Source: Warburgia ugandensis (taxonomy: Eukaryota; Streptophyta; Magnoliopsida; Canellales; Canellaceae). Taken from it: a stretch of 64,000 nt of DNA. Positions 3,932-58,560 of this stretch are shown here, one piece after another; the first letter of the stretch is position 1; each line of letters starts with the position of its first letter. The translations under genes were made by a program, and so were the position numbers. The notes beneath the pieces are model-generated. The model had not been told where the DNA came from and ran no database searches. It saw nothing but the letters and a program-made list of their open reading frames with translations. The DNA is taken from positions 6,854,001 to 6,918,000 of the forward strand of contig CP141135.1 in NCBI GenBank assembly GCA_035236585.1, read 5' to 3'.

Positions 3932-4376
3932 TCCCCGGTAGCTTCTCCCTCGGCTCACTTTCTCTTGCCAGCATGACCTAGGGTTTCCAGGCACGCCGGT
4001 TTTCCCTTTCTTCTGTCCTTCTCCTCTTCTTCTCCTCCTCCTCTCCTTCCTCTTTTTCTTCTTTCTTTTCCTCTCCCTTCGTCGGGTTTCTTCATCTTTT
4101 TTTTTATTTTGGGAAGACAGACCCGACAACTATGTCGGGTTGCCTTAAGTGGGAGGTGCTCGTATCAAATACGGCCCACTCTATTTAAGGTCCTTTTGTG
4201 CTTTTTTTTTTTTTTTTTGGAGATGTTACGGTAACTGCATTCTTTAATCGTATTGCAATACTATATTACACACTTACATTCATTTATCAAAAATAGATGT
4301 TTGAAGTTGAAAGCGGTAGGCAATCCTTTAAATTGCAGATGCCCATGATGGGTGTGGCAAGAGAGGGCCAACATGA

Positions 4377-5125
4377 TCGCTAGTGGGTGAAGATATGGAC
4401 TCCGGTTTAGATTGAGTGCCTAGACAAGCAATTCAGTCCATCTTCAATACATTCAATTCTAACCTCCAACTCTAGCAACCTTTTCTGTGCAGTGTTGTTC
4501 TTCTGTTCAGCTTCACATGCTGCGTCCTCCGTGCATCAGTTTTGACTCTGACAATTTACTATACCTCTTCGGCACTGCCGCATTTATGAAGGCGAAGATT
4601 GATTCAAAGGTGGAGATAGCGGAGCACCTGTACTTACTTTCAATACCCTCATCACAATTGATAGATAGAGAGGAAAGACTTTCTTTTGTTACATATGATT
4701 GCTTCAACGATTGAAGGTGATTGCTGAATTCCTTCTTCACAGAGCAAACACATTTGTTTCCAGTACCTTGTTCTTTACCTTTCCCTCGTTGAAGAGTCGA
4801 TTGAAGGTCTTGAACGTGCTCCTTTATCTGCAAAGAAACATCCCTCAGGGTGCCACAGACGTCCAATGATCTAAGTGATCCATCTTAGATTCTAACAACG
4901 TACTCTCCCCATTTACTTTGTTAATGGTGGGCAAGAGCCTGTTGGGTTGGTGGCAATTGGAGAAACTCCTGTGTGCAATCGTGCAAGTTCTTCAGACCAC
5001 ATAAACAAGAGGATGCATTGCAGACCTGTAGCTTGTTGATTGCTTCTTTGACATTGAATATAATAGGATGGATTGTGGAAGGTAGACTAATGGAGCGAAC
5101 GTAGTGGGGTTTTCCAGTTGTTGTA
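4377..5125 (-). pseudogene. DUF241 pseudogene, copy A
   Basis: Minus-strand relic of a DUF241 gene. One readable frame (4513-4866) keeps CGTLRDVSLQIKEHVQDLQSTL and the KKEFSNHLQSLK stretch, matching residues about 95-150 of the intact copy at 7050-7832. The N-terminal half is recognisable only at DNA level and is interrupted by stops. The start codon is lost: paralogs have CCATTG (ATG on minus) where this copy has CCAGTTG near 5115-5125. The 3' conserved block is present at 4322-4350. The TATA region is degraded (CATATAGC near 5217). Decay is advanced; no protein is expected. Confidence 0.85.
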
Positions 5126-6985
5126 GATGAAGAGGCGATCTTGGGATTTCTCTGGTGAGAGCCTATTCTGGCTAGAACAAATGGTTGATGATGTATTGTT
5201 CCACCTCTTTGGTTCTCATATAGCTACAGCTACAACAACTGAGAAGATGTAGAGACAGGGAGAACCTTTTTCTCCGTCTATGCGATCATGCATGTGACGT
5301 CGATCTGTCGGCCTTTGTATTTGTCGATCTTGTATCCAATTTGCCAAGAGTTTAAGCATCTTACCTCTGTATTTATTCCAAGAAGATCAGAGCCAGGTAC
5401 TACATATGACCTCATATGATTTTAAGATCGACATGAATGTTGTTTCTTTTTTTACGTCAATGAATCATGGTTCCTTCTATCAAGACAGCTTGAATGCCAG
5501 AGTTTCTTTTTGTATGTTGGCACCACATTTTAAAATAAGCATGCCTCGCAGTGGACTTCAATTTCATAAACCAATGGATCACCTTGATTAAATTTTCAAG
5601 TATTTGTGATGACAGTCTTTGCTGGGTAGTAGTAGGCAAGTAGGACATATTCCATTCGTGCATTTTGGCACATTCTAACAGTGCTAGTGGAAACAGTCAT
5701 GTCCATGGTGCACATGTATCGGCGATCCAAATAATTTATCTGACTGAGACGAGCTTTCAGGGCTATCTTTTTGGCTTTTCCAATTGAATACCTCAAAACT
5801 AAATATGAGTTTCTATTCAATCTTAAAATTACAACTATGTATGCCGCTAATTTAGCTATAAATTTCAGGGGGACAAAATTTCTGTTGTGGTAAGGAATTC
5901 GCCAATCATGCAGCATCTTATGTTTCCGCTTACCATTTGATGGAGAGCATCTTACACGATCTTGACCATTCATTGAACGGATTGACTGAAGCCCACTTGG
6001 ACCCACAAGGTAAATTACTAGGTTGAATGTTACAAACAGTTCTCTTGGATGAATTTCATAGGTTCTAATGAGAGTTTTTCTTGCATTTGTATGTGATCTT
6101 ACTTCAATCTGGTTTCATCCTGTGCTCTAGGATAGCTGGAGAACTAATGTTAAAAGCCTTGAATGAGCTTGTAAGGGGCATAAATTTTTATAACTTGAAA
6201 AGCCTATCTAGACCCCAAATAGTTTTGGCAGAATCAACCCAACAGAGCAATAATGACCCACTAAATAGCTATATGCACATTTATGTAAAAGCATGTTTCA
6301 CATCTATGACACACTCCAGTGGGTTGTGAGTTGTTCTCTCTTTTCTAGCTTTTATAGTCGTTTACTTGTAATGTTAGCGGCAGGTCCATTCTATTTTTCT
6401 GAATAGAAGTCCTGGACCGGTGAACCTGACTTTCCATCAAATAGTCAATTAAGTTTGGGTGAATTTAGAGTTGACTCATTGTCCGAGATGCATCATATTG
6501 GCCCTCATGCCACCATTTGAGTCTGGAAGTAAAACGAATATTTTGATATAATATTTTTTGAAAAGGGATGTAGTGACATAAACATTCAAGGTGAATTTGC
6601 TTGTCTGTTTTCTTAAAAAGCTGATAGAGATGTTTAATTAGTTATCAATTAATTATCAACGTATATATGGCGAATATACTCATATGTTCTGGATTTCCAT
6701 ATTTATCAGAAGATGAATCTGGAGGAAGGGAAAAATTCAATGAATGTGAAATAGTAATAAAAGGCAATTCTCCTTCTTTTTTTTTAACCACATCCAGTGT
6801 TTATTTCATCCAAAAGTAAAATATGTGTTAGTATTACGGATAACTAATTTAGTCTGAATATATAATTAGACAACAAAATTGATAACACAAAATGTTGGAT
6901 CTGTAATTTTTCTGTATTTGAAATCTGGCCTTACTATATCATTTACATTCATCTACAGCAATTAATGCCTAGAAAATGAAACCCA
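5126..6985. other. duplicated 5' flank of copy A and spacer; no gene seen
   Basis: Up to about 5420 this is recognisable DUF241 promoter flank (GGTTCTCATATAGC, then AGAAGATCAGAGCC, as in other copies). Bases 6480-6720 are a diverged copy of 13590-13830, so the spacer between array units was duplicated too. Short frames exist on both strands but have no family resemblance or intact paralog. Confidence 0.5.
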
Positions 6986-9068: not shown

Positions 9069-9480
9069 CCAATATGACATGTTATGCTTTTTCTGCCATT
9101 GCAGACGAGAAATTCCTTTGTTGTTTTCTCTTCATCGGTGTTGTTATAGCTTGAAGAGAGGAAGACGATGATGGTACGGTGCTTTTGGCAGATTGGTTCT
9201 CTTTTACAGCACCAACTAGCTGTGGACAAAATGAAGCGACCTGTCTGTGTAACGAAGCATGTGATCCGGCATTGGCGCATCCTTTGTATAAGGTGATGTT
9301 GGAACCTATCTCCCAGAAATCTTCAATTTTCTTTACTTCGAGAAGATTAAAGCCAGCAGGGCCTACCGGGCCGTTATGATTTTCAGATGCTCCCATCGTG
9401 CTTCTTCTCTTCTAGTTTTTGTTTTGTGGGGTTAATGGTTCAGGATTTGTGTGGCCTGGACAATCCTGGCTGGCTTGATC
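9069..9480 (-). pseudogene. DUF241 promoter and start-codon relic (gene body absent)
   Basis: On the minus strand this holds DUF241 upstream sequence (equivalent of the AGAAGATTAAAGCC and AAGCATGTGATGT segments), a mutated TATA position (TTTTACAG near 9202), 5' UTR and CCATTGCAG at the ATG site (9100). It then reads MAEKA-like residues followed by a stop and unrelated sequence from about 9070. The whole coding body is missing. An upstream fragment left by deletion or by an unequal-exchange breakpoint. Confidence 0.75.
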
Positions 9481-9614
9481 AATAGCATTCAACTGAACTT
9501 TCAGTCTCTCCACATAGCATGACGTTTGATCAATTATTTATGGAAATAGAGGGGGCCCTTTTTTTTCCCTTGACCGTCCAAATTTGATAAATGGCAAGAA
9601 GCATTGGCTGTTGA

Positions 9615-14103: not shown

Positions 14104-14885
14104 CCTTTAAAATGCAGATGCCCATGGAAGTTTGGAAGTTGGAATCCACAGGCAAATCTTGTGTGACAGAACTTCAATAATGCAGTTGCAACCTTTTCTG
14201 TGCACTGTTATCCTTTTCTTCTACGTAACATACTGTTTGTCCCTTGTGCATCAATTTTGACACCGACGACAACTTCGTACATCTCTGCGGCACTGCTGCA
14301 TGGATGATGGTGAAGATTGCCTGAAAGATGGAGATGGTGAGGGCCTGAACATTTTTCAACACCCTCATCTCAGCTCATAGATGCTTATCTTGATCTAAGA
14401 GGGGAGACGGTTTCTTATCCATACGCTTCTACCAGTCAAGGTTCTTGTTGAATTCCCTCTTCACCTTCTTCTTAGAGCAATACATTTTCTTTCACTGCCT
14501 GATTCTATACCTCTTCCTTGTCGAGGAGTTGATTGAAGGTCTTGTACGTGTTCCTTCATGCGCAATGAAACATTCCTCAAGGTACCACACATGCCAACGA
14601 TCTAAATGATCCATCTAGCACCTCCTCAACACATTTCTCTTGTTAATGTTAGGCAAGTGCTTGTTGGGTCAATGGCAATTGAAGGAGATCATTGATGTAA
14701 TCACTGAAACACTTAATGCCACTCAAGCCAGTGGAAATTGTCTCATTGCTGCAGAGGATGCCTCCCAACTCTTTTAGCTTCTCGATCTCTTTTTCGACTC
14801 CGGCCACCATGGTATGGGATCTGGAGGTCCAACTGGTGGAGCGAACATGGTAAGCTTTTAGTGCCGTTGTAGATGAGGAAACCAT
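14104..14885 (-). pseudogene. DUF241 pseudogene, copy C
   Basis: Start at 14885 (MVSSSTTALKAYHVRS), with the first about 80 residues readable to 14649 (GLSGIKCFSDYINDLLQLPL), then frame breaks in the middle. 14174-14368 keeps a C-terminal piece with SIFQAIFTIIHAAVPQR and SKLMHKGQTVCYVEE. The conserved C-terminal segment and normal stop region are lost: the 3' flank from 14104 abuts a duplicated fragment (GGAAGTTGGAATCCACAGGCAAA occurs twice, near 14075 and 14125). The TATA position is mutated (TTATGTAA near 14972). Confidence 0.85.
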
Positions 14886-17928: not shown

Positions 17929-18736
17929 CTTTAAAATGCAGATGCCCATGATAGGTTATGGGGTAGAGAGGGCTACCAAGATCTCTAGTGGGAGAAGATG
18001 TTGAGGAGATTGACTCTGGTTTGGATTAAGTGCCTAAGCAGGCACTCCAATCCATCTGCAATACTTCCAACTATAACCTCCACTTCGCGCAACCTTTTTT
18101 GTGCACTGTTATCTTGTTCCTTGAGCATCAAGTGTGACACCAATGACAATTTACTAGACTCACTTTGGTACTGCTACATAAATGAAGCCGAAGATTGATT
18201 TGAAAATGGACCTGCTGAGCGCGTACACTTCTGTCAAAATCCTCATCACAATTGATAGAAGCTGGTCTTGATCTAAGGCAGGAAAGATTTTCTTATCTGA
18301 AGCTTCAACGAATCCAGGCACTAGCTGAATTCCTTCTTTGCCTTCTTCACTGTGCAAATAAAATTGCTTTCACTGCTTCAATGTGTACCTCTTCCTCGTT
18401 GAAGATTCAGTTCTACGCCTTGAACATGTTCTTCGTCTGCAATGAAACATCTCTCCATGTGCCACAAATGTCCACATTAATCAAAGTGAGAAATCTAACA
18501 ACCCCGGTACCCATTTCTCTTGTTGATGATTGGCAAGGTATTGTTGGGTGAGTGGGCAGTTGTAGGAGATCCTTGATGCAATCATACAAGTTCTTGAGGC
18601 CATTTAAGACAACCAAATCATCTAGTATGTCTCAAAAGTCTTCAGGTTGTTGATCTCTTCTTTTACAGGAACCACTCAGGGATGGGATCTGGAGGTCCTG
18701 CTAATGGAGAAAACATGGTAAGTTTTTTCTGCCATG
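17929..18736 (-). pseudogene. DUF241 pseudogene, copy D
   Basis: The conserved 3' block (17929-17955), a C-terminal end like the intact genes (CTCTAGTGGGAGAAGATGTTGAGG) and a start codon (CCATGG near 18735) are present. In between are frameshifts and small deletions: 18160-18357 and 18413-18616 give separate short frames, the second with VVLNGLKNLYDCIKDLLQLP fused out of frame to ICGTWRDVSLQTKN. A TATAAAAG box is retained (18819-18826, minus). No usable frame. Confidence 0.85.
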
Positions 18737-22766: not shown

Positions 22767-23605
22767 TCCTTCAAAATGCAGATGCCCATGGTGGATTTTT
22801 GGTGTAGAAACTATAAAGGGATAACAAAGAGATAACTTGGAGATGAACATGTTGAGAAGATTGACTCTGGTTTGGATTAAGTGCCTAATGATGCGCTACA
22901 ATGCATCTTCAATAGCTTCAATTCTAGCCTCAAACTCCAGCAAACTCTTTTGAGTCATTGGATCATCACTATCACTTGAGAAATGAGTTGTCCCTTGTGC
23001 ATCAATTTAGACCCAACGACCATTTACCAGTGCTATGCTTTGGCAGTCACACATAGATGAAGGAGAAGATCAATTCGAAGATTAACACTATGATCGTTCT
23101 TACTTCTTTCAACACCCTAATAACCAGTGATAGACGATGGTCTTGATCTAGGGGTGGGGAGATTTTTTTTATCCATACTTTACAATGATTCAAGGTGCTT
23201 TCCGAATTCCTTCATTATCTTCTTCATAGAGCAAACATATTTGCTTTTGTTGCCTAGTTCTCTAGAATTTCCTCGACGAATAGTTGATTGAAGGTCTTGG
23301 AGATGTTCTTTCATTGCAGCGAAACATCCTCAAGGTACCACACATGTCCACCAATCTAACCGAACCATCTAGCAATTTCTTTACCCACTTCTCTTGTTGA
23401 TAGTGAAGAAGGGCTTGTTGGATGAGTGGCAACTGAAGGATGTCCTTGACACAATGATACAGGTCCTCGAGACCGCTTAAGCCAAGGAAAATCATCTGAC
23501 TCCTTGAAAGGTCTCCCAAATCTTAGCTTGTTGATCTGTGACCATGAGGGTGTTGGGATAGGGAAGTCCTGCTGAGGGAACAAAATGGTAAGCTTTTTTT
23601 GCCAC
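22767..23605 (-). pseudogene. DUF241 pseudogene, copy E
   Basis: The conserved 3' block is at 22767-22793. The middle frame 23262-23519 retains GLSGLEDLYHCVKDILQLPL and LLDGSVRLVDMCGTLR, after which a one-base change breaks the frame. The start region reads GCCACCTTGG (about 23599), so the ATG is gone. The C-terminal half is only traceable as DNA. A TATATAAG-like box survives near 23672-23680. Confidence 0.85.
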
Positions 23606-24190
23606 CTTGGTGACTCTACTTTGGCTTGAAAAATTATTGATGAAGATGATATGTTCCTAACTCTGCTTCTTATATAGCAACAACTATAAGAGTAGATTAA
23701 GGATAAAGAGAACCTTTTCCTCTTATTTTTATGCAATAACGCATATTATGTGTATGTGGCCCTCAGTATTTGCTGCTTTTCTCACCCATTTGCCAATGAC
23801 ACTAGCATCTTTTTTTCTTTCTTTACTCCAGTTCATATGAATTTGGGACTCCTGCAGCACGAGTAACATCCTCAACTCTAACCATTTAAGCCGCAAATTA
23901 AGAATGCCTGGTCTAGATCATGCATACATGTCCCAGGATAAGCCACAAGAGTGGCATATGTCTCCTTGTCCCCTCTACTCACCCCCTAATTCCTGCATAA
24001 ATGATTCATCATAGGTCATATATCTTATAAAGTTCAATACAAATTGTAATTACTAAAACAAGATAGTAGCCTGCATCATTTGCCTCCACCCACGAAGTAA
24101 AGAACCATTAACCTTCTAATGAAGAAAGAAAAAATGTAAACAAAAGGAAAGATAGTGGGGCCATGAAAAATCATATGAACCTTGATATGA
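23606..24190. other. spacer between opposed DUF241 copies; no gene seen
   Basis: Begins as the 5' flank of minus-strand copy E (to about 23840) and ends as the 5' flank of plus-strand copy F. The centre (23850-24180) is unique sequence without a frame. Confidence 0.45.
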
Positions 24191-24530
24191 CATGTTAGCT
24201 CTGATCTTCCTGGAGTAAAGAAAAAGATACAAGTGAAGTTTGTTTGGCAGATGTATCACAAGCTCACTGAAAACAACCGAAGATTCACATCCAGATCACT
24301 TGAATGATAGCATAGGCAAGAAGATAAGATTCTTTCTGTCTTTGCATCTCCCTCTATAACTCTTGTTATACAAGAACCAAAGAGTTCCAACAAAAGTCAT
24401 CATCATCTTTTTCCTTCTTCAAGCTGAAAGTTTCTGTGAAGAGAAAACAAAGACCACTTCTCTATAATGGTGGAAAATCTTAATGGACCTCTAGATCCCA
24501 TCCCTAGTGGCTAAAGAAGTTTTTGGAGAG
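24190..24530 (+). pseudogene. inverted, truncated DUF241 copy F (promoter and start only)
   Basis: Plus-strand order is: upstream flank (GCTCTGATCTTCCTGGAGTAAAG, reverse complement of the CTTTACTCCAAGAAGATCAGAGC segment of other copies), a CTCTATAAC TATA-like site near 24352, the ATC-rich 5' UTR (CATCATCATCTTT), then an ATG at about 24467. The next codons correspond to the family N-terminus at DNA level (GACCTCTAGATCCCATCCC equals the SRSHP region of other copies), but sequence loss follows the ATG, and homology ends by 24530. The only array member on the plus strand. Confidence 0.7.
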
Positions 24531-36847: not shown

Positions 36848-38735
36848 GCAACAGCTATGAAGAAAATGAAGAGACAAGGAGAATCTTGTTCTATTCATGT
36901 CTAAGGAAGCATGTGATGTAGACGTGGATCTTCCCTTCTATATTGTGATCATGTAACCAATCTGCCAACAGGCTTCATTTCTATATCTCGCTTCAGATCA
37001 AAATGCATGGCCAATCAAGCTTAAATGATTCTTAATGCCCCCTTTGCTTGTCTATTTTTAATTTTGGTCAATGTTTTCTGTTTCCTTCGATCACATAAGC
37101 CAGGAAGGCCAATGTTTTGGATCTACTAGTGCATCTTGGAAGTAGAGATGGCTAGCATTGAATTTTAGTTTCTTAAACCATGCACGACCATGGTTCAATA
37201 ATCTAGTAAAAATGGCAGTGGTGGTTGTGTCTTGAGGATACAATGAGGCACAAGCCACTCGTGCTCTATACCGTTTGAGTAATTAAAGTAAAGCCAATCT
37301 GGTTAATGTAGCGCAAGCTTTGGAGATCCAAATAATTACCTGGTAGTCAACTTTTATTATAAGGAGTTATATTGGCATAAAGATCAGCTTCGTGGTGCCA
37401 CCAGCTGAATGGTTTGGATCACATAAACAGATAAGATCAACAGATCGTATTAAGTCACCAGATAGGATGTTTGATTCGACTGCAAGTACAGTGAGATGTG
37501 ATCTCTTGGTGATTTATACATGCTAGCTTAGAGACCGGCAAGAAACTAGCCAATAGTGGTCTAGAACTCAATATGGTTATATGGTAGTCTTGTTCCTTAT
37601 TCTGATAGGAAAGCAAGGCCTGATCTTGAATATGAAATTCCACTTTTCTCTAGCTTATATTATATCACTGGACTGAAAGAATTCTACTTGTCTACTGACT
37701 CTGCAAGCAGTAGGTACTACTTCTTTGAAGGGATTTTGAACATAATTCATGTTTTCCCAAGTAAATCACTACCGAAAGAAAGTCCATTATCTCAGTAAAA
37801 ACAGAGTAAATTTAACTCAGTTCACTTTTGACAAGTAACCTGCTAGGTTAAGACGTTAATATCATCAAGGAATGATGCTTCCAGTATTTTGGGTTCTCAT
37901 CAATTTCGACAATGTAGTATGCATCTCATGTGGACAGCATTAATTTGCCAATGTCAAATTGAAACAAAGTGATTAAAACCATTTGATAGCTATTATTCCC
38001 CTATAATTGAACTGGCTCTGCATTTTGATTTTCTTTTGAATGAGAAACCAGACCTGGAATTTGCCTGTATGCTCAAGGTTATACATGGTTGCGAGATATG
38101 AAATGCATCGAAATCCATGTTGGATTAAAGTAGGCAAATGCCAACTCAAAATGTCAAGGATCTGCATGATTTTCTAAAGGCATTAATCAAAAGAAAGGGA
38201 AGGGAACGGAATCATGAAAATAAAGTACTGAGATCTGCACGGGAGTTAAAGGTTCAACTGAAGAAAAACAGAGAACTATATAAAAATTCAAGCTAAGGCT
38301 GCAGATCACAAATCATCATGCTTACTCCATCGGAACTTAGCAAGTCTTCTTCAATATTCTTCTCCCTTCTGACTAGTTAAATTATTTTCTATCAAGAGAA
38401 AAGAAAAGAAAAAAAGCTTTGTGCAGTGATCATCGGAACACAATCAGACCATTAACTGAGAAATTAAGACCAATCATCTTCTGATCAACAAGAGTGTAGC
38501 CTTTATTTAACAGAGCCATATCGGCCAAAAACTGGCAATACTTCTAGTAACTCAGACTATGAACGTTTTTAAGCTGGTATTCTGGACAACATAAATGTCA
38601 GATCAAACATAATCAAGAAATAAAACTCAGAGCTATTTTATATCGAATATCTGGAACCGTTTTAATATTGGATGAGAATACATTCGTATTTATCTACAGA
38701 CGCATATTGATATTTGCCAATTGAACCCAAGGGGC
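36848..38735. other. upstream flank of copy H and duplicated spacer; no gene seen
   Basis: Upstream block AGCCACTCGTGCTCTATACC at about 37248. 37440-38640 repeats 32290-33330. 38420-38700 repeats 46760-47060 and 48425-48690. No frame is conserved between these copies. Confidence 0.5.
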
Positions 38736-38737: not shown

Positions 38738-39568
38738 ATCCTCAAAATGAGGATGTCAATGATGGGTTTGATGTTAAAATGGCTGGTGAGATCTCTAGCA
38801 GGTGAGCATGTTTAGGTGACAGATCTGGCTTGGATTAATTTCCTAAAGATGCACTCCAATCCTTCTTCATTGCCTTCAATGCTTGACTCCAACTCCTGCA
38901 GCCTTTTCTGAGTCATTTTCTCTGCTTCTTCCATTTCACATGCAACCTGTCCCTTGTTCATCAGTTTTGACACCAATGACCATTTACAGTCTTTCTCTTT
39001 GGTGCTGATGCACCCATGAAAGAGAAGATGGACTGGAAGATGGTCGTTGTGAGCACCCTGACTTCTTTCAGCAACTGATCAGTTCTGTTACATCCTGACT
39101 TTGATCCAAGAGACAAGATGAATTTCATTTGTCATCCCCACGCTTCAGGTTCTTGCTGACTTCCTTCACTTTCTTCCTGGTGCAAATATATTTGTTTTGG
39201 TTGAGTTTCTCCAGTTCTTCCTATGCGAAGAGTCGATTGTAGGTCTTGCACATATTCCTTCATCTGCAATGAAACATCCCTCGAGGAGACACAGATGTCC
39301 AACAATCTAAGCGATCCATCTATCGGCTTCTCTACGCATTTCTCTTGTTTTTGGTGTGCTAAAGCTTGTTGGGTAAGCGGCAACTGAAGGAGATCATCGA
39401 CACAATTGTATAAGTCCTTGAGCCTAGTCAGACCAATGCATAGTCTCCTTTGTCAGAGATGATTGCTCCCAAGATTTTAACTTATTAAGCTCGTCTTCGG
39501 CTCTGACTTAAGGGGATGGGATCCAGTGGACTAGCTGTTGGAGCGAAGATGATAAGCTTTTTCCGCCA
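38738..39568 (-). pseudogene. DUF241 pseudogene, copy I
   Basis: Start at about 39568 (CCATTG), 3' block at 38738-38765. 39132-39383 keeps PLTQQALAHQKQEKCVEKPI, DGSLRLLDICVSSRDVSLQM and KEYVQDLQSTL. Single-base losses disrupt both sides: near 39440 (CCAATGCATAGTCTCC lacks bases that copy J has as CCAATGCAAATTGTCTCC), near 39165 and near 39075. Closest in sequence to copies J and K. A TATATAAG box is kept at 39654-39661, and the copia element is inserted 27 bp beyond it. Confidence 0.85.
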
Positions 39569-39653
39569 TTGTAGAAGAGAAGACTGTTTTTTCTTGTAGT
39601 TGGAAGAAGGAAATGATGGTGATGATGATATGCAGTTCTGGCAGATTGGCTCT

Positions 39654-39688: not shown

Positions 39689-40046
39689 TGTTGGTCCAGA
39701 CCCATTTCAGACAGCCGCCGTATTCAACGGTGGCGGGCGCAGCAGTCGGTGCTGACTGCTGACTTCAACAGCGGCGGGCGCCGCCGTCGGCCACCGCCAC
39801 CGACCTTTGAATTTGTGTAAAACGGGTTGAAAAATCAGACCTGAAAATTCCCTATTTATAGGGATACCAAGAGGGCAAGGGAAGAACCCCATTCCTCTGT
39901 AAAAACCCCGTGTATACCTCTCTGTAAAACCCCAGTTTCATAGTGAAATCATTCTCTCCCGTGGACGTAGGCTTATTGGCCGAACCACGTTAAAACTCTG
40001 CGTTTTTTGTGTGTATGATCTTGGGCGGGGACGAAAATCCCCAACA
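39689..40046 (+). repeat. copia 5' LTR
   Basis: TGTTGGTCCAGACCC to TCCCCAACA, 358 bp. U3 carries a GC-rich part with a perfect 8 bp hairpin (39740-39747 with 39754-39761), then a TATA-like TATTTATA at 39853-39860. Differs from the right LTR at C/T near 39802, T/C near 39842 and one T near 40008. Confidence 0.97.
39853..39860 (+). promoter_or_regulatory. LTR TATA box
   Basis: TATTTATA, about 165 bases into the LTR; the likely core promoter for the genomic RNA. Confidence 0.6.
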
Positions 40047-40048
40047 AG

Positions 40049-40060
40049 TGGTATCAGAGC
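40049..40060 (+). other. copia primer binding site
   Basis: TGGTATCAGAGC two bases after the LTR end; tRNA-iMet type. Confidence 0.95.
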
Positions 40061-40145
40061 TCGGTTCTGCCGTGAAACAGAGGCAGAAAACGGATTTGCA
40101 GTTCCGGCGGTCGAGAGGAGGAAGAAAACTGTTCCTGGTACAGTT

Positions 40146-40245
40146 GCTACAGTAATCATCATTTGCTGCTACAGTGAAAAGCACGTCATCATGTTGCTAC
40201 AGTCAAAGCATCATCATTACTGTCGGCTACAGTGATTGCTACAGT
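40146..40245 (+). repeat. repeated GCTACAGT motif in the copia leader
   Basis: Five exact GCTACAGT copies (40146, 40168, 40196, 40226, 40238) plus degenerate GCAACAGT and TACAACAGT just after, between PBS and gag. Not coding. Possible RNA packaging or regulatory role is speculation. Confidence 0.85.
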
Positions 40246-40408
40246 AGCGTATTGCAACAGTACCGGGTTACAACAGTGATTCGACTGGAGTAGACCTATT
40301 TTTGGCAGGTTTTCAAGGGGGATAGACCAGTTCTTGGCAAACGCAGTGGTGTTCTCAAATTTGTAAGATTTTTCTCCTGAAATTGCTGTAAGTACCCTTT
40401 CTTTACTT

Positions 40409-41887
40409 ATGGAGGCAAACATGAGCAAAATGATTTGCTTAAATGGTACTAACTATCACAAGTGGAAGGGAAAAATGAAAGATCTTCTTTTTGTGAAGAA
40501 ATTACATCTACCTGTTTTTGCTACTCAAAAACCGGAGGATAAGTCCGAAGAAGAGTGGGCTTTTGAACACGAACAGGTATGTGGTTTTATTCGACAATGG
40601 GTAGAAGATAATGTTTTGAATCATATTCAAAATGAAATACATGCTAGAACTCTATGGATCAAATTAGAAACCTTGTACGCGTCGAGAACAGGGAATAATA
40701 AGTTATTCCTACTTAATCAAGCGATGCACTTGAGATACAAGGAAGGGAGTTCTATTTCCGACCACTTGAACGAGTTGACCGGATGCTTTCAGCAACTATC
40801 CGATGTTGGCGTCAGGTTTGACGATGATATCATGGGTTTATGGCTTTTAAATACTTTGCCTGACTCATGGGAAAATTTTCGTGTTTCTCTAGCTAATTCT
40901 ACTCCGTGTGGTGTCATGACATGGGAATTTGCGAGAAGCGCAGTTCTAAATGAAGAAATGAGGCGACGAGCTCAAGTTGTCACCACATCACAATCTGAGA
41001 TTTTGATCTCAGAAAATCGAGGGAGAAGCAAGATCAAAGGACAGGAGAAGAATAATAGAAGCAGGAGTAAGTCTAAGTCCAGATACAAGAATCTGGAATG
41101 CAATTATTGTGGCAAGAAGGGTCACATTAAAAGGCAGTGTTACAAATGGAAAGCCGAGAACAAAACAGAAAATGCCAAGCAGGAGAGAAGAAATGATGAG
41201 GGGAATGATCGTGTAGCTGCCACTACTTCAGGCATTGTTGTGATCTGTGATGAAAATGAAATCAACCTAGCCTCCAATGAAATTGGATGGGTTGTTGACA
41301 GTGGTGCTTCTTTTCATGTTACCTCGAGGAGGGAGTTTTTCACCTCGTACACTCCTGGTGACTTTGGAGTGTTGAAGATGGGTAACGATGGGCTGTCAAA
41401 GGTTGCTGGTATCGGATCCGTTTGTTTGGACACCAACAACGGAACAAGGTTGATTCTCAAGGACGTTCGACATGTACCAGATATCCGGTTGAACTTAATA
41501 TCAGCCGGAAAGCTTGATGATGATGGGTACTGTAGTACCTTTTGCGATGGACAGTGGAAGCTCTCTAAGGGAGCGCTTGTGGCTGCCAGAGGGAAGAAAT
41601 CATCTAGCTTGTATGTGATGCAAGCTTCGATTCCTATTAACTCTGTGAACGCAGTTGATGTTGCTGGTTCTTCAGAGTTGTGGCACAGGCGGCTCAGTCA
41701 CATGAGTGAGAAAGGACTAGGTTGTCTAGTCAAGAAGAATTTGCTTTCAGGGCTCAAAGCTACAAAGGTGAGCAAATGTGCTCATTGTCTTGCCAGGAAG
41801 CGAACGAAGTTTCCTTCAAAAGCCATCATTCTTCCAGAAAGCCAGGCGTACTTGAATTGGTACATTCAGATGTATGCGGTCCTATGA
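40409..41887 (+). CDS. copia gag, protease and start of integrase (first frame)
   Basis: Starts ATGGAGGCAAACATG after the leader. Residues about 1-170 are a gag domain (LNGTNYHKWKGKMKDLL; LETLYASRTGN; LLNTLPDSWENF). A CCHC zinc knuckle (CNYCGKKGHIKRQC) lies at about 230. The protease motif WVVDSGASFHVT is at about 293, with DSG as active site. The GAG-pre-integrase part LWHRRLSHMSEKGL then CAHCLARKR gives the His/Cys zinc-binding set. The true frame is lost near 41840 by an apparent single-base loss in a short A run; the last about 15 residues before the stop at 41887 are out of frame. Gag forms the particle, protease matures the polyprotein. Confidence 0.93.
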   Translation: MEANMSKMICLNGTNYHKWKGKMKDLLFVKKLHLPVFATQKPEDKSEEEWAFEHEQVCGFIRQWVEDNVLNHIQNEIHARTLWIKLETLYASRTGNNKLFLLNQAMHLRYKEGSSISDHLNELTGCFQQLSDVGVRFDDDIMGLWLLNTLPDSWENFRVSLANSTPCGVMTWEFARSAVLNEEMRRRAQVVTTSQSEILISENRGRSKIKGQEKNNRSRSKSKSRYKNLECNYCGKKGHIKRQCYKWKAENKTENAKQERRNDEGNDRVAATTSGIVVICDENEINLASNEIGWVVDSGASFHVTSRREFFTSYTPGDFGVLKMGNDGLSKVAGIGSVCLDTNNGTRLILKDVRHVPDIRLNLISAGKLDDDGYCSTFCDGQWKLSKGALVAARGKKSSSLYVMQASIPINSVNAVDVAGSSELWHRRLSHMSEKGLGCLVKKNLLSGLKATKVSKCAHCLARKRTKFPSKAIILPESQAYLNWYIQMYAVL

Positions 41888-42602
41888 AGGTACGCACATT
41901 TGGTGGTGCATTATATTTTGTCACATTTATTGATGATTATTCCAGGAAACTCTGGGTCTATGTTTTGAAAACTAAGGATCAAGTGTTTGACAAGTTTAAA
42001 GAATTTCAAGCTTCTGTTGAGCGACAAACGGGGAAGAAGCTGAAATGCATTCGCACAGACAACGGTGGCGAGTATTGTGGACCTTTCGATGCTTATTGTA
42101 AGAAGCAAGGGATTAGACATCAAAGAACTCCTCCGAAGACTCCTCAGCTAAATGGTTTAGCAGAAAGGATGAACAGGACATTGATGGAGAGGGTCAGATG
42201 CTTGCTTTCTGAGGCAAAGCTGCCCGGTTCCTTCTGGGGTGAGGCACTATACACTGCAGCCTATGTTATTAACCTATCTCCAATAGTTGCCTTGAATGCA
42301 GATGTTCCTGACAGGCTATGGTATGGAAAAGATGTCTCTTACGATCATTTGCGGGTATTTGGGTGCAAAGCGTTTGTACATATACCTAAGGATGAGAGGT
42401 CCAAGTTAGACGTCAAGACCAAACAATGCATTTTCATCGGCTATGGGCAGGATGAGTTTGGTTACAGGCTATATGATCCTGTTGCAAAGAAGCTGGTTAG
42501 AAGTCGTGATGTGGTCTTTATGGAAGACCAAACCATTGAACACATCGACAAAGCCAAAGTATCAGAAACTCAAAGTTCTGATACTCTGACGCATTTAGAT
42601 CC
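41840..42602 (+). CDS. copia integrase core (second frame)
   Basis: A frame open from 41722 to 42630, but meaningful only from about 41840. Integrase catalytic triad: Asp in LVHSDVCGPM, Asp in RTDNGGEY, Glu in NGLAERMNRTL. Then SFWGEALYTAAYVIN, and the C-terminal FGCKAFVHIPKDERSKLD and FIGYGQDEFGYRLYDP motifs typical of copia integrase ends. The frame is lost a second time between 42582 and 42602; the remaining residues to the stop at 42630 are out of frame. Role: inserts the cDNA into host chromosomes. Confidence 0.92.
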
Positions 42603-44414
42603 GCCTCTGTTTCACATACGCCAAGTGTAGATGGCACCAATGACCATGGTGGTGCTCCAGTTGATGTTCAAGATAATCAGGCTGAGGGAGAACATGAAGC
42701 TGCTGAAGACATGGATGTTTCGTCAGAGGTTGATGATATTCAGCAGGAGGTTCCTACTGAGGAACCAGCAGTTTCATTGAGACGGAGTTCGAGAGATCGT
42801 CAACCCTCCACTCGATACTCATCAGATGAGTACGTACTCCTCACTGACGGGGGAGAACCTGAGAGTTACACAGAGGCAGCTGAAAGTGAAGAGAATGCAG
42901 AGTGGATTGCAGCTATGAAGGATGAGATGAAATCCTTACAAGACAACCACACTTTTGAGCTGGTAAGATTACCTAAAGGCAGACAAGCTTTGAAGAATCG
43001 GTGGATATACAGGGTGAAGTACGAAGGTGACACTTCACAACCACGATACAAAGCTAGACTTGTCGTGAAAGGCTTTGGTCAAAGGAAAGGTGTTGATTTC
43101 GAGGAGATATTTTCTCCTGTTGTTAAAATATCTTCAATCCGAGTTGTATTGGGTTTGGCCTCAAACCTTGATCTGGAGGTTGAGCAGATGGATGTGAAGA
43201 CAGCATTCCTCCACGGTGACTTAGAGGAGGAGATATATATGGAGCAGCCAGAAGGGTTTGTTGCTAAAGGCAAAGAGAAGTATGTCTGCAAGCTGAAGAA
43301 GAGTCTGTATGGCTTAAAGCTGGCACCCAGACAGTGGTACAGGAAGTTCGAGCAGTTCATGACCCAACAGGGTTATCGAAAGACTATTTCAGATCACTGT
43401 GTGTTTGTGCAGAGATTCTCAGAAGATGATTTCATCATCTTACTACTCTATGTCGACGATATGCTTATTGTTGGAAGAAGCTCTTCAAGGATCAGTCAGT
43501 TAAAGAAGGAGCTGAACAAAGTCTTTGCTATGAAAGACTTAGGATCCGCGAGACAGATTCTCGGGATTTCTATCATTCGTGACAGGAAGAATAAGAGGTT
43601 ATGGCTGTCTCAGGAGAAGTACATAGAAAAGGTACTTCAACGATTTCACATGGATAAAGCTAAAGTGGTTAGTACACCTTTTGCTACTCATTTTAAGCTT
43701 AGTAAGAATCAAGTTCCAACAAGTGATGCTGAGAAGGAATACATGCAAGATGTTCCTTATGCTTCAGCTGTTAGCAGTCTTATGTATGCCATGGTATGCA
43801 CTAGACCAGACATTACATATGCAGTTGGTACAGTGAGCCGTTTTCTATCAAATCCAGGAAAAGAACATTGCAATGCAGTGAAGTGGATATTGAGATATCT
43901 ACGTGGTACTTCTAAGTTGTGTTTGGGATTTGGCACTGGCAAGCCCGTGCTTGAGGGCTACACTGATTCAGATATGGCTGGTGATATTGACACGAGGAAG
44001 TCTACTTCAGGCTACTTGATTACTTTTGCAGGGGGAGCTGTGTCATGGCAATCAAAGTTACAGAAGTGTGTTGCCTTATCTACAACAGAGGCTGAGTTTA
44101 TTGCTGTGACGGAAGCATGCAAAGAGTTATTGTGGATGAAGAAGTTCGTGAACGAACTTGGCTTTATGCAGAAGAGGTATGCGTTATTTTGCGACAGTCA
44201 AAGTGCTATACACCTTAGCAAGAATTCTACTTTTCATGGAAGGTCAAAGCACATTGATGTTCGGTATCATTGGATACGTGATATTTTGGACTCGAAGTCG
44301 TTAGAGCTTGAGAAAATTCATACTGATGATAATAGTTCAGATATGATGACAAAAGCATTACCTCGAAGCAAGTTCGAGAGTTGCAGAGAATTGGTCGGGA
44401 TGGGCTTCTGCTAA
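42603..44414 (+). CDS. copia reverse transcriptase and RNase H (third frame)
   Basis: Readable in frame from 42603, with the first internal Met at 42711. An acidic linker (about 75 residues) precedes RT. RT motifs: RWIYRVKYEG, LVVKGFGQRKGVDFEEIFSP, VEQMDVKTAFLHGDL and the catalytic LLLYVDDMLIVG. RNase H: YTDSDMAGD, STTEAEFIA, FCDSQSAIHL and SKHIDVRYHWIRD, giving the D-E-D-D set. Ends MGFC, 50 bases before the right LTR. Oddity: the near-invariant SLYGLKQAPR motif reads SLYGLKLAPR (Gln to Leu). Confidence 0.95.
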   Translation, partial: ASVSHTPSVDGTNDHGGAPVDVQDNQAEGEHEAAEDMDVSSEVDDIQQEVPTEEPAVSLRRSSRDRQPSTRYSSDEYVLLTDGGEPESYTEAAESEENAEWIAAMKDEMKSLQDNHTFELVRLPKGRQALKNRWIYRVKYEGDTSQPRYKARLVVKGFGQRKGVDFEEIFSPVVKISSIRVVLGLASNLDLEVEQMDVKTAFLHGDLEEEIYMEQPEGFVAKGKEKYVCKLKKSLYGLKLAPRQWYRKFEQFMTQQGYRKTISDHCVFVQRFSEDDFIILLLYVDDMLIVGRSSSRISQLKKELNKVFAMKDLGSARQILGISIIRDRKNKRLWLSQEKYIEKVLQRFHMDKAKVVSTPFATHFKLSKNQVPTSDAEKEYMQDVPYASAVSSLMYAMVCTRPDITYAVGTVSRFLSNPGKEHCNAVKWILRYLRGTSKLCLGFGTGKPVLEGYTDSDMAGDIDTRKSTSGYLITFAGGAVSWQSKLQKCVALSTTEAEFIAVTEACKELLWMKKFVNELGFMQKRYALFCDSQSAIHLSKNSTFHGRSKHIDVRYHWIRDILDSKSLELEKIHTDDNSSDMMTKALPRSKFESCRELVGMGFC

Positions 44415-44452
44415 AAGTCCATACGTGAAGAAACCTCCTTCAGTTAATGGGC

Positions 44453-44467
44453 CTGGAGGGGGAGATT
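44453..44467 (+). other. copia polypurine tract
   Basis: GGAGGGGGAGATT directly before the right LTR, primer site for plus-strand synthesis. Confidence 0.85.
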
Positions 44468-44826
44468 TGTTGGTCCAGACCCATTTCAGACAGCCGCCGT
44501 ATTCAACGGTGGCGGGCGCAGCAGTCGGTGCTGACTGCTGACTTCAACAGCGGCGGGCGCCGCCGTCGGCCACCGCCACTGACCTTTGAATTTGTGTAAA
44601 ACGGGTTGAAAAATCAGACCCGAAAATTCCCTATTTATAGGGATACCAAGAGGGCAAGGGAAGAACCCCATTCCTCTGTAAAAACCCCGTGTATACCTCT
44701 CTGTAAAACCCCAGTTTCATAGTGAAATCATTCTCTCCCGTGGACGTAGGCTTATTGGCCGAACCACGTTAAAACTCTGCGTTTTTTTGTGTGTATGATC
44801 TTGGGCGGGGACGAAAATCCCCAACA
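44468..44826 (+). repeat. copia 3' LTR
   Basis: 359 bp, TGTTGGTCC to CCCCAACA; nearly identical to the left LTR. Confidence 0.97.
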
Positions 44827-44831
44827 GAGAC
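44827..44831. repeat. copia target-site duplication, right (GAGAC)
   Basis: Repeats 39684-39688; DUF241 flank continues with AAGGAGAATCTCATCC. Confidence 0.95.
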
Positions 44832-44955
44832 AAGGAGAATCTCATCCTATTCATGATTATGTAATGAAACTTGTGATGTGGACGGGTATATACCTTTGTT
44901 TATGGTGATGCTGCAACCAATTCTTCAACAAAGGTTCTTTTATAACTTCTCTGTA

Positions 44956-47187: not shown

Positions 47188-47969
47188 CTAGCAGGTGAGA
47201 ATGTTTAGGAGACTGACTCTGGTTTGGATTAGGTGCCTAAAGATGCACTCCAATCCTTCTTCAATGCCTTCAATTCTTGATTCCAACTCCTGCAGCCTTT
47301 TTTGAGTCATTCTCTTCTCTTCCATTTCATATGTAACTTGTCCCCTGTTCATCAGTTTCGACACCAAAGACCATTTGCTGGTCTTTCTCTTTAGTGTTGA
47401 TGCATCCATGAAACAGAAGATGGACTGGAAGATGGTCATTGTGACCACCCTAACTGCCTTCAGCAACCTGATGAGCTCTGTTACATCCTGACTTTGATCC
47501 AAGAGACGAGATGACTGGCATCTGTCATCCATACGCTTAGGTTCTTGCCCACTTCCTTCTTCACTTTCTTCATAGAGCAAATATATTTGTTTTGGCTGTC
47601 GGTTTCTCCAATTCTTCCTCTGCGAAGAGTCCATTGAAGGTCTTGCACATGTTCCTTCATCTGCAATGAAACATTCCTCAAGGACCCACAGATGTCCAAC
47701 AATCTAAGTGATCCGTCTACCAGCTCCTCTACCCATTTCTCTTGTTTTTGGTGTGCCAACGCTTGTTGCGTAAGCGGCAACTGAAGGAGATCATTGACAC
47801 AATTGTACAAGTCCTTGAGCCTAGTCAGACCAATGCAAATTGTCTCCTTTGTCAGAGATGACTGCTCCCAAGATTTCAACTTACTAGGCTCTTCTTCGGC
47901 TCTGGACTTAAGGGGATGGGATCCGGTAGACAAGCTCTTCGAGCGAAGATGATAAGCTTTTTCTGCCAT
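47188..47969 (-). pseudogene. DUF241 copy J, one frameshift from intact
   Basis: ATG at 47969 (MAEKAYHLRSKSLSTGSHP). The first frame runs through GLTRLKDLYNCVNDLLQLPL, LVDGSLRLLDICGSLRNVSL and CSMKKVKKEVGKNL, then shifts. The second frame continues from MDDRCQSSRLLDQSQDV through LNRGQVTYEMEE-like residues to the normal C-terminus LECIFRHLIQTRVSLL and stop at 47188. At the shift (about 47546-47550) copy J reads GCTTAGGTTCTTG where copy K has GCTTCAGGTTCTTG: one base is missing. All other features, including a TATATAAAG box and 3' block, are intact. Either a recent pseudogene or a base-calling error in the source sequence. Confidence 0.88.
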
Positions 47970-48061: not shown

Positions 48062-48720
48062 GCAACTGCAACGGAGAAATGAAGAGACAAGGAGAATCTC
48101 ATCCTGTCCATGTCTATGTAATGAAACTAGAGATGTGGATGTGAATCTACGTTTGTTTATGGTGATCCTGTAACCAATTAGCCAACAAAGGCTCTTTTAT
48201 CTCTTTTCTTTGCTCCAAGAAAATCACAACCAGGCTTGCCATATCGAGCTCAAATGATTTTTGATGCACTATTTGCATGTTTTTTTTTTTCCCTCCTGCT
48301 CAATGGTTTCTGTTTCCTTGGATCAGACAACATTGGCTGGCACGAGCCTGTACAAATTCATGCACAACCTGGATTGAATAATCAAGTATATGGTGGCAGA
48401 GATGCTGGTGCCTTAAGGGGATAATCAGAACAGAATCAGACGATTAACTCAGAAATTAAGACCAATCATCTTATGATCAACAAGAGTGTAGCCTTTATTT
48501 AACAGAGCCATATCAGCCAAAAACTGGCAATGCTTAACTCAGACTTTGAACGTTTTTAAGCTGGCATTCTGGACAACAGAAATGTCAGATCAAGCATAAT
48601 CAAGAAATAAAACTTAGAAATATTTTATATTGAATATCTGGAACTGTTTTCATATTGTATAAGTATACATTCGTATTCATCTACAGACACATTGATATTT
48701 GCCAATTGAACCCAAGGGAC
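48062..48720. other. short upstream flank of J joined to 3' flank of K
   Basis: 48062-48420 is copy J upstream flank; from about 48421 the sequence is the far 3' flank of a unit (compare 38440-38700). The usual about 2 kb spacer is missing, so this is a recombination or deletion junction. Includes the empty-site sequence for the copia insertion. Confidence 0.65.
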
Positions 48721-48874
48721 ATATCCTTCAAAATGCGGATGCCAATGATGCGTTTGATGTTAAAATAACTAATGAGATCTCTAGCAGGTGAGAATGTTTA
48801 GGAGACAGACTCTGGTTTGGATTAAGTGCCTAATGATGCACTCCAATCCTTCTTCAATGCCTTCAAATTTTGAC

Positions 48875-49564
48875 TCACAACTCCTGCAGCCTCTTTTGAG
48901 TCATTTTCTCTTCTTCCATTTCACATACAACTTGTCCCTTGTTCATCAGTTTCGACACCAATGACCATTTACTGGTCTTTCTCTTTGGTGCTGATGCACC
49001 CATGAAAGAGAAGATGGACTGGAAGATGGTCGTCGTGAGCACCCTGACTTCTTTCAGCAACCTGATCAGTTCTGATACATCCTGACTTTGATCTAAGAGG
49101 CGAGACGACTTGCATTTGTCATCCATACGCTTCAGGTTCTTGCTGACTTCCTTCTTCACTTTCTTCATGGAGCAAATATATTTGTTTCGGCTGTCGGTTT
49201 CTCCAATTCTTCCTCTCCGAAGAGTCGATTGAAGGTCTTGTAAATGTTCCTTCATCTGCAACGAAATATCCCTCAAGGACCCACAAATGTCCAACAATCT
49301 AAGTGATCCATCCATCAGCTCCTCTACCCACTTCTGTTGTTGATAGTATGCTAAAGCTTGTTGGATATGCGGCAACTGAAGAAGATCTTCGACGCAATTG
49401 TACAAGTCCCTGAGCCCAGTCAAAACAATGCAAATTGTCTCCTTTGTCAGTGATAATCGCTCCCAAGACTTCAACTTGTTGAGCTCTTCTTCAAGTCTGG
49501 ACAAAAGGGGATGGGATCTGGAGAGCAAGCTGTTGGAGCGAACATGACAAGTCTTTTCTGCCAT
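48875..49564 (-). CDS. DUF241 family protein, copy K, C-terminally truncated
   Basis: ATG at 49564 (MAEKTCHVRSNSLLSRSHP), 229 residues. Intact segments: EEELNKLKSWERLS; GLRDLYNCVEDLLQLPHIQQ; ELMDGSLRLLDICGSLRDIS; YICSMKKVKKEVSKNLKRMD; VSELIRLLKEVRVLTTTIFQ then SIFSFMGA; SKWSLVSKLMNKGQVVCEME. It ends TQKRLQEL at a TGA (48875). At that point copy K has GACTCACAACTCC where copies I and J have GACTCCAACTCC, an extra base, so the last about 37 residues (the IEGIEEGLECIFRHLIQTRV equivalent) are lost though still present at DNA level to about 48770. Could be expressed as a truncated protein or be a young pseudogene. TATAAAAG box at 49662-49669. Confidence 0.8.
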   Translation of the reverse strand: MAEKTCHVRSNSLLSRSHPLLSRLEEELNKLKSWERLSLTKETICIVLTGLRDLYNCVEDLLQLPHIQQALAYYQQQKWVEELMDGSLRLLDICGSLRDISLQMKEHLQDLQSTLRRGRIGETDSRNKYICSMKKVKKEVSKNLKRMDDKCKSSRLLDQSQDVSELIRLLKEVRVLTTTIFQSIFSFMGASAPKRKTSKWSLVSKLMNKGQVVCEMEEEKMTQKRLQEL

Positions 49565-50769: not shown

Positions 50770-51462
50770 TGGTCAACGTTTTTGTGCCGTTTCTTCTTCT
50801 TCAACTTCCGATGCTACTGGTCCCTTGTGCACCAGTTGTGACACCTAGGACCATTTTACTAGGCTTCTGCTTTGGCATCGACAAAAACATGAAGGAGATG
50901 ATGGATTGGAAGATGGGGATGGTGATCTCTCTTACTTCTCTTAACACCTTGATCACCACTGCTAGATGTTGGTCTTGTTTTAAGCGAAGTGACAATGCAC
51001 ATTTCTTGTCCAAGCGCGTCAATGCCTCAAGGCGCTTGCTAAGCTCCTTTGTCTTCTTCATAGAGCAAATGTAATCGTTGGTTTTGCTTTCCTTGCCAGA
51101 TTCTTCACCTCTTCTTCTTTGAAGAGTCCATTGAAGGTCCTGAACATGTTCATCTGCATCATAACATCCCTCAAGATGCCGCACATGTCCAACAATCTCA
51201 GTGACCCATGCAACAACTCAACCCATTTCTCTTGTTGATGGTAGGTAAGAGAATGTTGGGTGAGTGGCAACTGAAGAAGATCTTCAATGCCATCATACAA
51301 GCTCTTGAGACTGCTTAGAACATTGCAGATTGTTTCTCTCGTCAAGGTAGAGGCTCGTTAATTCTCCCAAGTTTATAGCTTATTAATCTCTTCTTCGATT
51401 TGGGAAGGAAGGGAATGAGATGTGGAGGGCAGGGTAATGGATCGAACATGTTAAGAAGCCAT
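50770..51462 (-). pseudogene. DUF241 pseudogene, copy L
   Basis: Start at 51462 (ATGGCTTCT) but the fourth codon is TAA. 51058-51345 then reads LSSLKSLYDGIEDLLQLPLT and LHGSLRLLDMCGILRDV, and after a frame change 50801-51184 keeps CSMKKTKELSKRLEALTRLD, DQHLAVVIKVLREVREITIP and FLSMPKQKPS. The C-terminal 50 or so residues and the conserved 3' block are missing: homology stops near 50770. No TATA-like box at the expected place (TTTTTAGATACC near 51530). Confidence 0.85.
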
Positions 51463-54895: not shown

Positions 54896-55760
54896 CCAAT
54901 TACGAGATGAGGAGAGACAAGAAGAATCTTAGCCTCATCATGTCTGTGTAATTAAGCATGTTATATGGATCTTGCAACCCTATCTGCCAACGAACTTCAC
55001 TGCTACATCTTTCTTTACTCTTAAAAGATTAGAGCTAGGCTTGGTCGGGCCCATAATCTTGTGTTTGTTTATGGAGAGTCAATGGATCATGATTTCTTTC
55101 ATCGAGACATGCATCGGAAGCCATGGTTTTGTTGTTTCAAATTGCATTATTAAATAAAACATGGCTCGAATGAACTGTAAAGGTTGCTTCAGAACAGACA
55201 CGACCGTGATTGAATAGCTTATGCAGAGTTCGGAAACAGGGAGGAAATAGAGAGGGGGACAGGGAGGCATATGCCACTCGTTTAATGTTCCTAATTCAAG
55301 TTTAGAAGAGAAAACAACGAGTGTGGAAGTGTTACATGCATGTCTACATGATCTGGACCATTCATGCATGTAATGAACGATTAGTAGTACACCTCAAACC
55401 TAAAACAATCTAAGCTGACCAAGTTTTACGCACAATAGTAGTACGGCAACTACGGATGATGGATGAGACAATAGATGGTTGAAAACAATGGTAGAGAATC
55501 TTCGGAATGAGCACGTAAGATCATCAGGTCAGCATCACTATAGGATTTATATTGTAGGGACAGATCTAGATCGTTTCTGCGTGTCCCAACGGTATTCGAT
55601 TAGGTTCCAGGACCGGAAGATTAAATTATGTTTAACGCGTTTATTTTTTACTAAAATTACTAGAATACAGTGCACGAGTGGTGTCTGCCTGCTTGTCTCC
55701 TCTACAGAAAATTATCACTGCAACAATACTGTTGAACTATATTACAATTTCTAACCCATA
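54896..55760. other. upstream flank of copy M; duplicated at 58.1 kb
   Basis: Shares GCTAGGCTTGGTCGGGCCCATAATCTTG, split around 55033-55060, and AATGGATCATGAT with 58170-58230, and AGATCATCAGGTCAGC / CAGATCTAGAT with 58470-58520. Holds the ATGCCACTCGTTTAATG version of the upstream block at about 55268. No gene. Confidence 0.6.
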
Positions 55761-58070: not shown

Positions 58071-58077
58071 TGGCATA

Positions 58078-58560
58078 TGGATAGAGAGACAAAGGGTATC
58101 TTGGCCTCTTCATGTCTGTGTCATTAAGCATGTGATATGGATCTTGTAACCCATCTCCCAACAAACTTCTTGGCTAGGCTTGGTCAGGCCCATAATCTTG
58201 CATTTTTTTTTAATTGCGAGATCAATGGATCATGATCCGCTCATCGAGATATGTCCAAGGTTTTGTTGTTGTAAATTGCATTTTTAAGCAAAACATGATA
58301 TGTCACCCGTGTGACTTACCTTAATTCTGATAAGTTTAAGATAAAACACGAACAGTGAATCAGGTACTCTACCTGATCTGCATCGTTCACCCGATGGTAC
58401 GGCAGTCCCGGCTAGCAATGGGGATTTAAATATAGTCCAGAATCTTCATATCAACGGTTAAGATTATTAGATCAGCGTTACATTAGGATATATATTAAGG
58501 CCAGATCTAAATTATTTATGGGAGTGCGGAGTGGATCAGATTAGATTTCAGGAACGGAGT
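58078..58560 (-). pseudogene. DUF241 upstream-flank relic (no coding sequence)
   Basis: Homologous to 54905-55600: GGCCTCTTCATGTCTGTGTC, AAGCATGTGATATGGATCTT, TTGGTCAGGCCCATAATCTT, then ATGGATCATGAT and later ATTATTAGATCAGCGTTAC. The promoter core and coding region that should lie to the left are absent; unique sequence abuts at 58078. Marks the far edge of the array. Confidence 0.75.

Follow-up and report, generated by a model that had tools for sequence, protein, structure and literature searches.

How does a tandem gene array come to hold intact genes, nearly intact genes and fossils side by side? A stretch of 64,000 bases of the Warburgia ugandensis genome (hereafter the window; C10:6854001-6918000 on contig CP141135.1, in an assembly of 1.12 Gb and 14 contigs) raises this question for the DUF241 (PF03087) genes, a family for which we know of no molecular function. 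Our analysis indicates that the window very probably represents most of the C10 half of an old DUF241 tandem array, which belongs to a duplicated block with its other half on C4 and was then fractionated.

Copies were located by tblastn with 13 intact family proteins together with frameshift-aware alignment. The window contains 12 DUF241 coding copies, each on the minus strand, among which three are intact, two have a single frameshift and seven are multiply broken with 5 to 10 lesions. It additionally holds three 5′-flank relics with little or no coding sequence, one of them inverted. The earlier note on this DNA had counted fifteen copies or relics ranging from intact through near-intact to fossil, and both the count and the range are borne out; where it described one inverted truncated copy and two upstream-only relics, the inversion is real but the supposed truncated copy is in effect the third 5′-flank relic (about 11 coding bases). 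Its description of the gene as intronless also holds for the coding part, as each of the three intact open reading frames (ORFs; 260, 266 and 272 amino acids) is one uninterrupted coding exon that covers the PF03087 profile from position 1 or 2 to 238 of 238, with scores of 226.6, 241.6 and 242.9 bits (cut-off 23.5). An ORF of 229 amino acids at 48875-49564 also matches PF03087, and together with the three intact ORFs the scores range from 190.7 to 242.9 bits. None of the three intact window proteins matches PF05633 (DUF793) at E values up to 0.01. Spacers are duplicated along with the genes, again in agreement with the earlier description (for example 46780-48413 versus 48424-50013, 78.6% identity).

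The array extends beyond the window and has a counterpart on C4. A six-frame search of the genome for PF03087 yielded at least 48 matches, at least 46 of which fall in two clusters, one at C10:6.86-7.08 Mb and the other at C4:50.15-50.44 Mb (these counts are lower bounds). Besides the window we read C10:6834001-7098000 and parts of the C4 cluster, and found five further C10 copies at 6976.9-7083.2 kb, up to about 7.08 Mb. The alignment comprises 33 pieces. C10 contributes 17, including the 12 of the window, and C4 contributes 16, of which two are one transposon-split gene, leaving 15 C4 copies and 32 copies in total, of which 13 are intact (5 on C10, 8 on C4). The C4 array is a mirror image of the C10 array, with homologous neighbour genes on both sides. 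On one side C10:7054697(-) pairs with C4:50167010(+) at 84% identity, and on the other C10:6840498(-) pairs with C4:50431828, 50470118 and 50477880(+) at 85-89%. This latter flanking gene has one match on C10 versus three on C4, one of which lies inside the span of the C4 array.

Phylogenies place the divergence of several array lineages before the duplication of the block onto the two chromosomes. In a tree built from 31 coding sequences (264 out of 358 alignment columns, with stop codons masked; C4_50387.0k and C4_50414.0k left out as too short), window copies interleave with C4 copies, and they do so equally when the split C4 copy is merged. With copies named by their kb positions, support for cross-chromosome groupings is 93.9/99 for 6982/50219, 97.7/99 for the D group, 99.3/99 for the B group and 100/100 for 6887/50439. 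Forcing the 12 window copies to be monophyletic is 382 log-likelihood units worse and is rejected by the approximately unbiased (AU) test (p-AU 1.2e-6); this test and the codon model below used 28 sequences, without the two short copies and the pair 7083/50147. Because window copies interleave with C4 copies and their monophyly is rejected, the array is older than the block duplication, and several of its lineages predate the duplication onto C10 and C4. A tree of 350-bp 5′ flanks joins the 35.9 kb copy with 50405 (97.3/96), the 33.5 kb copy with 50439/50414 (100/94) and the 47.2/38.8 kb copies with 50403 (99.5/96). The tree-paired groups are collinear, running 7083, 6982, D (6902-6892), B (6890) and E (6887) on C10 and 50147, 50219, D (50399, 50403), B (50405/411) and E (50414, 50439) on C4. 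Across chromosomes, synonymous divergence (dS) for five pairings is 0.346, 0.400, 0.210, 0.263 and 0.29-0.37.

Several observations weigh against this reconstruction. The C4 interval was read in part, nodes of the flank tree other than those given above are weakly supported, and the 48.8 kb copy (6902) takes positions in the coding and flank trees that disagree, its pairing with C4:50399 coming from position alone. Two pairs, copy C (6908) with C4:50388 (dS 0.77) and 6976.9 with 50231.9 (dS 0.97), diverge too much to date from that event; the members of each probably go back to separate ancestral copies that have each disappeared from the opposite side.

A purely local and recent tandem burst on C10, followed by decay, would account for some of the same material. 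No copy from the C4 parts read falls in the 4.4/7.1/14.2/18.0 kb group (support 97.6/99), the coding tree unites the 38.8/47.2/48.8 kb copies in a clade confined to C10 (95.7/99), and spacers are duplicated. As an origin of the array as a whole, however, such a burst is ruled out by the constrained-tree test, and as a general account it is very improbable given that coding and flank trees alike pair copies across the chromosomes, that the flank tree puts C4:50403 within the 38.8/47.2/48.8 kb group, and that C4 has homologous flanking genes. The earlier note had treated the window copies as one locally generated set, a claim that it tied to their monophyly and that these trees overturn; the strong local turnover that it proposed is possible on C10 for the two groups just named and fails for the whole array. 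Coding and flank trees, which it had suggested comparing, have three cross-chromosome pairs in common and place the 48.8 kb copy differently. One might also ask whether the C10/C4 pair stems from a segmental duplication or a translocation confined to this region and not from duplication of the whole genome, as the synteny evidence here consists of two genes around the block. We regard this as unlikely, and a whole-genome duplication as likely, because more distant members of one flanking gene's family lie at other positions on both contigs (C10:58.38/C4:72.39 and C10:8.45/C4:48.99 Mb), a hint of wider pairing.

In the favoured history, an ancestral tandem array already held several lineages when a block duplication, presumably part of a whole-genome event, put related arrays onto both chromosomes. 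Copies on each chromosome then broke through frameshifts, stops and Copia insertions, without a sign of common lesions, some tandem copies exchanged sequence, and partly complementary loss left lineage B intact on C10, lineage D on C4 and the 33.5 kb lineage on neither among the copies found.

The decay of the array is fractionation after block duplication, with loss partly complementary between C10 and C4. Lineage B is intact on C10 only (35943-36743), with its C4 relative at 50394.9 kb broken. The closest C4 homeolog of copy B is split by a Copia element at 50406107-50411370, which has its own target duplication and belongs to the same Copia family as the element in the window. Lineage D has two intact copies, both on C4 (50399 and 50403 kb), while its three C10 copies (38.8, 47.2 and 48.8 kb) are broken. 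In the 33.5 kb lineage each copy found is broken; its C4 relatives are 50439 kb (in both trees) and 50414 kb (in the flank tree), and the 33.5 kb and 50439 kb copies have no same-type lesion in common. The lesions give no sign that copies were already dead when duplicated, since lesions common to several copies are no more frequent than chance: five were seen versus 3.8 expected among 95 lesions in 20 broken pieces, and 33% of random placements gave at least as many.

The three intact window copies bear the mark of purifying selection. The codon model gives an omega (dN/dS) of 0.38 for internal branches, of 0.61 for the terminal branches of broken copies and of 0.48 for those of intact ones. 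Terminal omega, which the earlier note had asked for, lies below 1 in copy A (0.34, p = 0.0008), copy B (0.41, p = 0.022) and copy C (0.50, p = 0.005), where the branch tests against omega 1 use approximate profiles and p values are uncorrected across 28 branches. What tempers this result is that omega is below 1 at p < 0.05 on 8/11 intact and also on 7/17 broken terminal branches, including 3/9 broken window copies (22.8, 47.2 and 50.8 kb). Because broken terminals show it too, omega below 1 is no proof of present function. Low omega in a broken copy can result from late death on a long branch.

Lesion density and estimated time since loss show a weak trend among nine window copies (rho 0.60, p = 0.086) and no relation when the codon model's 17 broken copies are taken without the split C4 copy, which leaves 16 (rho 0.01, p = 0.96), and we therefore reject lesion density as a clock. 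The graded decay series of the earlier note accordingly stands as a classification of the copies and falls as a measure of time. The lesions of the two single-frameshift copies could be assembly errors or recent segregating mutations, in which case both would really belong to the intact class. Each has one lesion, and terminal omega of the copy at 47191-47969 is 0.39, below 1 (p = 0.005). We nevertheless consider this improbable, as no single-base run longer than 4 occurs in the 61 bases around either lesion, and omega of the copy at 48784-49564 is 0.70, indistinguishable from 1 (p = 0.33).

Site patterns fit sequence exchange among the 38.8, 47.2 and 48.8 kb copies. Across the 5′ flank and the initial 400 columns of the coding alignment, the 38.8 kb copy has 19 sites in common with the 47.2 kb copy versus 4 with the 48.8 kb copy; over the remaining coding and downstream sequence it has 38 in common with the 48.8 kb copy versus 10 with the 47.2 kb copy (Fisher p = 1e-6; weaker for the coding part alone, 15:3 versus 3:6, p = 0.026). 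Any of the three copies could be the recombinant, since the 38.8 kb copy is also alignable with C4:50403 along the downstream flank.

A Copia-type long terminal repeat (LTR) retrotransposon has inserted into the conserved promoter box (described below) of the same 38.8 kb copy, and its 5-base target duplication, GTCTC, lies inside that box. The element has LTRs that are 99.2% identical and three ORFs in its coding region (40409-41887, 41776-42630 and 42711-44414). LTR divergence is tiny compared with the 0.07 neutral changes per site on the terminal branch of this gene, so the element probably inserted after the gene had broken. A first look found 971 candidates for this Copia LTR in the genome, and the 40 scored ones are spread over 13 contigs, with none on C4. 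Because the family is this abundant, the two insertions found in the arrays are unremarkable and do not speak for the array as a preferred target. ARAGORN called a tRNA-Phe in both LTRs (39708-39799 and 44487-44578); the pair is most likely false, falling in a part of the LTR that is G+C-rich and has no Rfam match, and Rfam at gathering thresholds gave no match anywhere in the window.

Several copies carry a 16-base box, GATTCTnnTTGTCTCT, just 5′ of a TATA box. It contains TGTCTC, the classical auxin response element. In three of four flank sets, which we chose ourselves, the box is the best-conserved 16-mer of the 5′ flank, and it ranks second in the set with C4:50388. Nine copies have TGTCTC and TATA[AT]A within 400 bases, with TGTCTC 24-29 bases 5′ of TATA in 7/9, and TGTCTC occurs at -250 to -80 in 13/29 flanks versus 1.6 expected by shuffling. 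Allowing up to two mismatches, the window has 10 box matches versus 1.1 expected, nine of them in 5′ flanks or relics and one in a coding relic. Exact matches number 34 genome-wide, eight of them in the two arrays. At the protein level, RSxSxP, a possible phospho-dependent docking site for 14-3-3 proteins, lies near the N terminus in 11/13 intact proteins. AlphaFold models the 35.9 kb protein, with moderate confidence, as an almost wholly helical bundle whose N terminus is of low confidence (mean predicted local distance difference test score, pLDDT, 74.6); the input comprised four sequences, one shortened by its frameshift, and the five models had pLDDT of 41.5 to 74.6.

A functional reading of these features has to contend with several findings. 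The flanks compared come from related copies, the 26 exact box matches outside the arrays hardly exceed a reversed-pattern control (22), and copy A has an altered box, while none was found in C4:50388. RSxSxP is missing from 2/13 intact proteins, including copy A. Foldseek with the predicted model returned 0 matches at E values up to 0.001, so that no significant solved relative was found, and a sequence search of solved structures returned one match at E 0.28; we accordingly draw no function from the fold. Functional copies might be transcribed from a TATA promoter with the TGTCTC box and might encode an all-helical product whose N-terminal RSxSxP could serve as a 14-3-3-type docking site, a tentative proposal. 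Our preferred reading of their role, equally tentative, is that these proteins might be small auxin-output adaptors. In excerpts of a study of cucumber roots under gravistimulation, DUF241 genes make up two of the 18 with higher expression on the lower side, alongside Aux/IAA and GH3 genes; for these two the excerpts give the difference between sides and no auxin induction (PMC5764274). Excerpts of another report describe expression of Arabidopsis At2g17070 in lateral root cap cells (PMC4623083). More speculative still, and in our view distinctly doubtful, is a combined scheme in which the number of working genes per lineage would be kept about constant across both homeologs, a survivor being retained when its partner dies, and in which the genes would form a direct auxin-output family, defined by a TGTCTC box at a fixed place, 24-29 bases 5′ of TATA. 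If this were true, the changed box and the loss of RSxSxP in copy A would mark a shift to a new role.

Table 1. DUF241 copies, flank relics, promoter boxes and the Copia element, in window coordinates
Feature	Position	Strand	Remarks
DUF241 pseudogene	4392..5112	-	3 frameshifts, 3 stops
Copy A, intact DUF241 ORF, 260 amino acids	7050..7832	-	terminal omega 0.34; without RSxSxP; promoter box mutated
5′-flank relic	9077..9330 (approx.)	-	about 23 coding bases
DUF241 pseudogene	14186..14864	-	4 frameshifts, 4 stops
DUF241 pseudogene	17988..18735	-	6 frameshifts, 4 stops; terminal omega 1.10
DUF241 pseudogene	22845..23605	-	6 frameshifts, 3 stops
Inverted 5′-flank relic	24162..24477 (approx.)	+	about 11 coding bases
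DUF241 pseudogene (33.5 kb copy)	33526..34311	-	2 frameshifts, 3 stops
Promoter box GATTCTnnTTGTCTCT	34431..34446	-	pattern match
Copy B, intact DUF241 ORF, 266 amino acids	35943..36743	-	closest C4 homeolog Copia-split
Promoter box of copy B	36870..36885	-	pattern match
DUF241 pseudogene (38.8 kb copy)	38798..39569	-	6 frameshifts, 2 stops; fits exchange with 47.2 and 48.8 kb copies
Copia-type LTR retrotransposon	39689..44826	+	LTRs 39689-40046 and 44468-44826; 5-base target duplication
Displaced promoter box of 38.8 kb copy, beyond Copia	44826..44841	-	pattern match
Single-frameshift DUF241 copy (47.2 kb)	47191..47969	-	1-base deletion-type near 47534; terminal omega 0.39
Promoter box of 47.2 kb copy	48083..48098	-	pattern match
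Single-frameshift DUF241 copy (48.8 kb)	48784..49564	-	1-base insertion-type near 48880, toward 3′ end; terminal omega 0.70
DUF241 pseudogene	50776..51450	-	2 frameshifts, 3 stops
Copy C, intact DUF241 ORF, 272 amino acids	53987..54805	-	terminal omega 0.50
Promoter box of copy C	54913..54928	-	pattern match
5′-flank relic, closest to copy C flank	58084..58297	-	no coding bases

The window also contains other repeats and fragments. A repeat of 168-185 bp, which resembles the plant AU SINE (short interspersed nuclear element), is present in at least six copies (9613-9786, 20904-21082, 31859-32029, 50400-50580, 51976-52160 and 52630-52797). Two plus-strand segments, 10270-10587 and 12625-13047, are weakly F-box-associated-domain-like (E 6e-5 and 0.013, both under the Pfam cut-offs), and 12414-12659 recurs at 20400-20657. 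Tandem duplications lie at 24688-24932 and 24960-25051 (units of 124 and 46 bases, with 95 and 97% matches), and about 10 copies of a degenerate 41-base tandem repeat occupy 30971-31401.

Arabidopsis DUF241 genes are clustered. Those that appear in the excerpts we consulted (AT4G35660, AT4G35690 and At2g17070) have the same domain name, and the likeness is drawn by name, not by sequence. A full-text search for 'PF03087' in the collection of papers used gave no match. The current Pfam name of PF03087, 'BPS1', recalls BYPASS1 (BPS1; DUF793/PF05633), but BYPASS1 proper differs in having PF05633, whereas of these two domains the intact window proteins match PF03087 alone. According to excerpts of one paper, a DUF241 domain is found in Arabidopsis BPS3, and PF05633 in the BPS1 homologues (PMC5793164). 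A parallel in process comes from Brassica rapa, where, according to a published study, tandem arrays that predate polyploidy were strongly fractionated afterwards in comparison with non-tandem genes (PMC3509317). Here, by comparison, the individual copies of one array pair are resolved, along with lesion types, exchange and complementary survivors, and the polyploidy is inferred. The processes at work (birth and death, fractionation and exchange between tandem copies) are known ones, clearly resolved at this locus, and no new process is added. The paired arrays allow gene death, exchange and transposon insertion to be timed against one duplication, and the family gains two testable handles, one a conserved box in the core promoter, the other a motif near the N terminus of most intact members examined.

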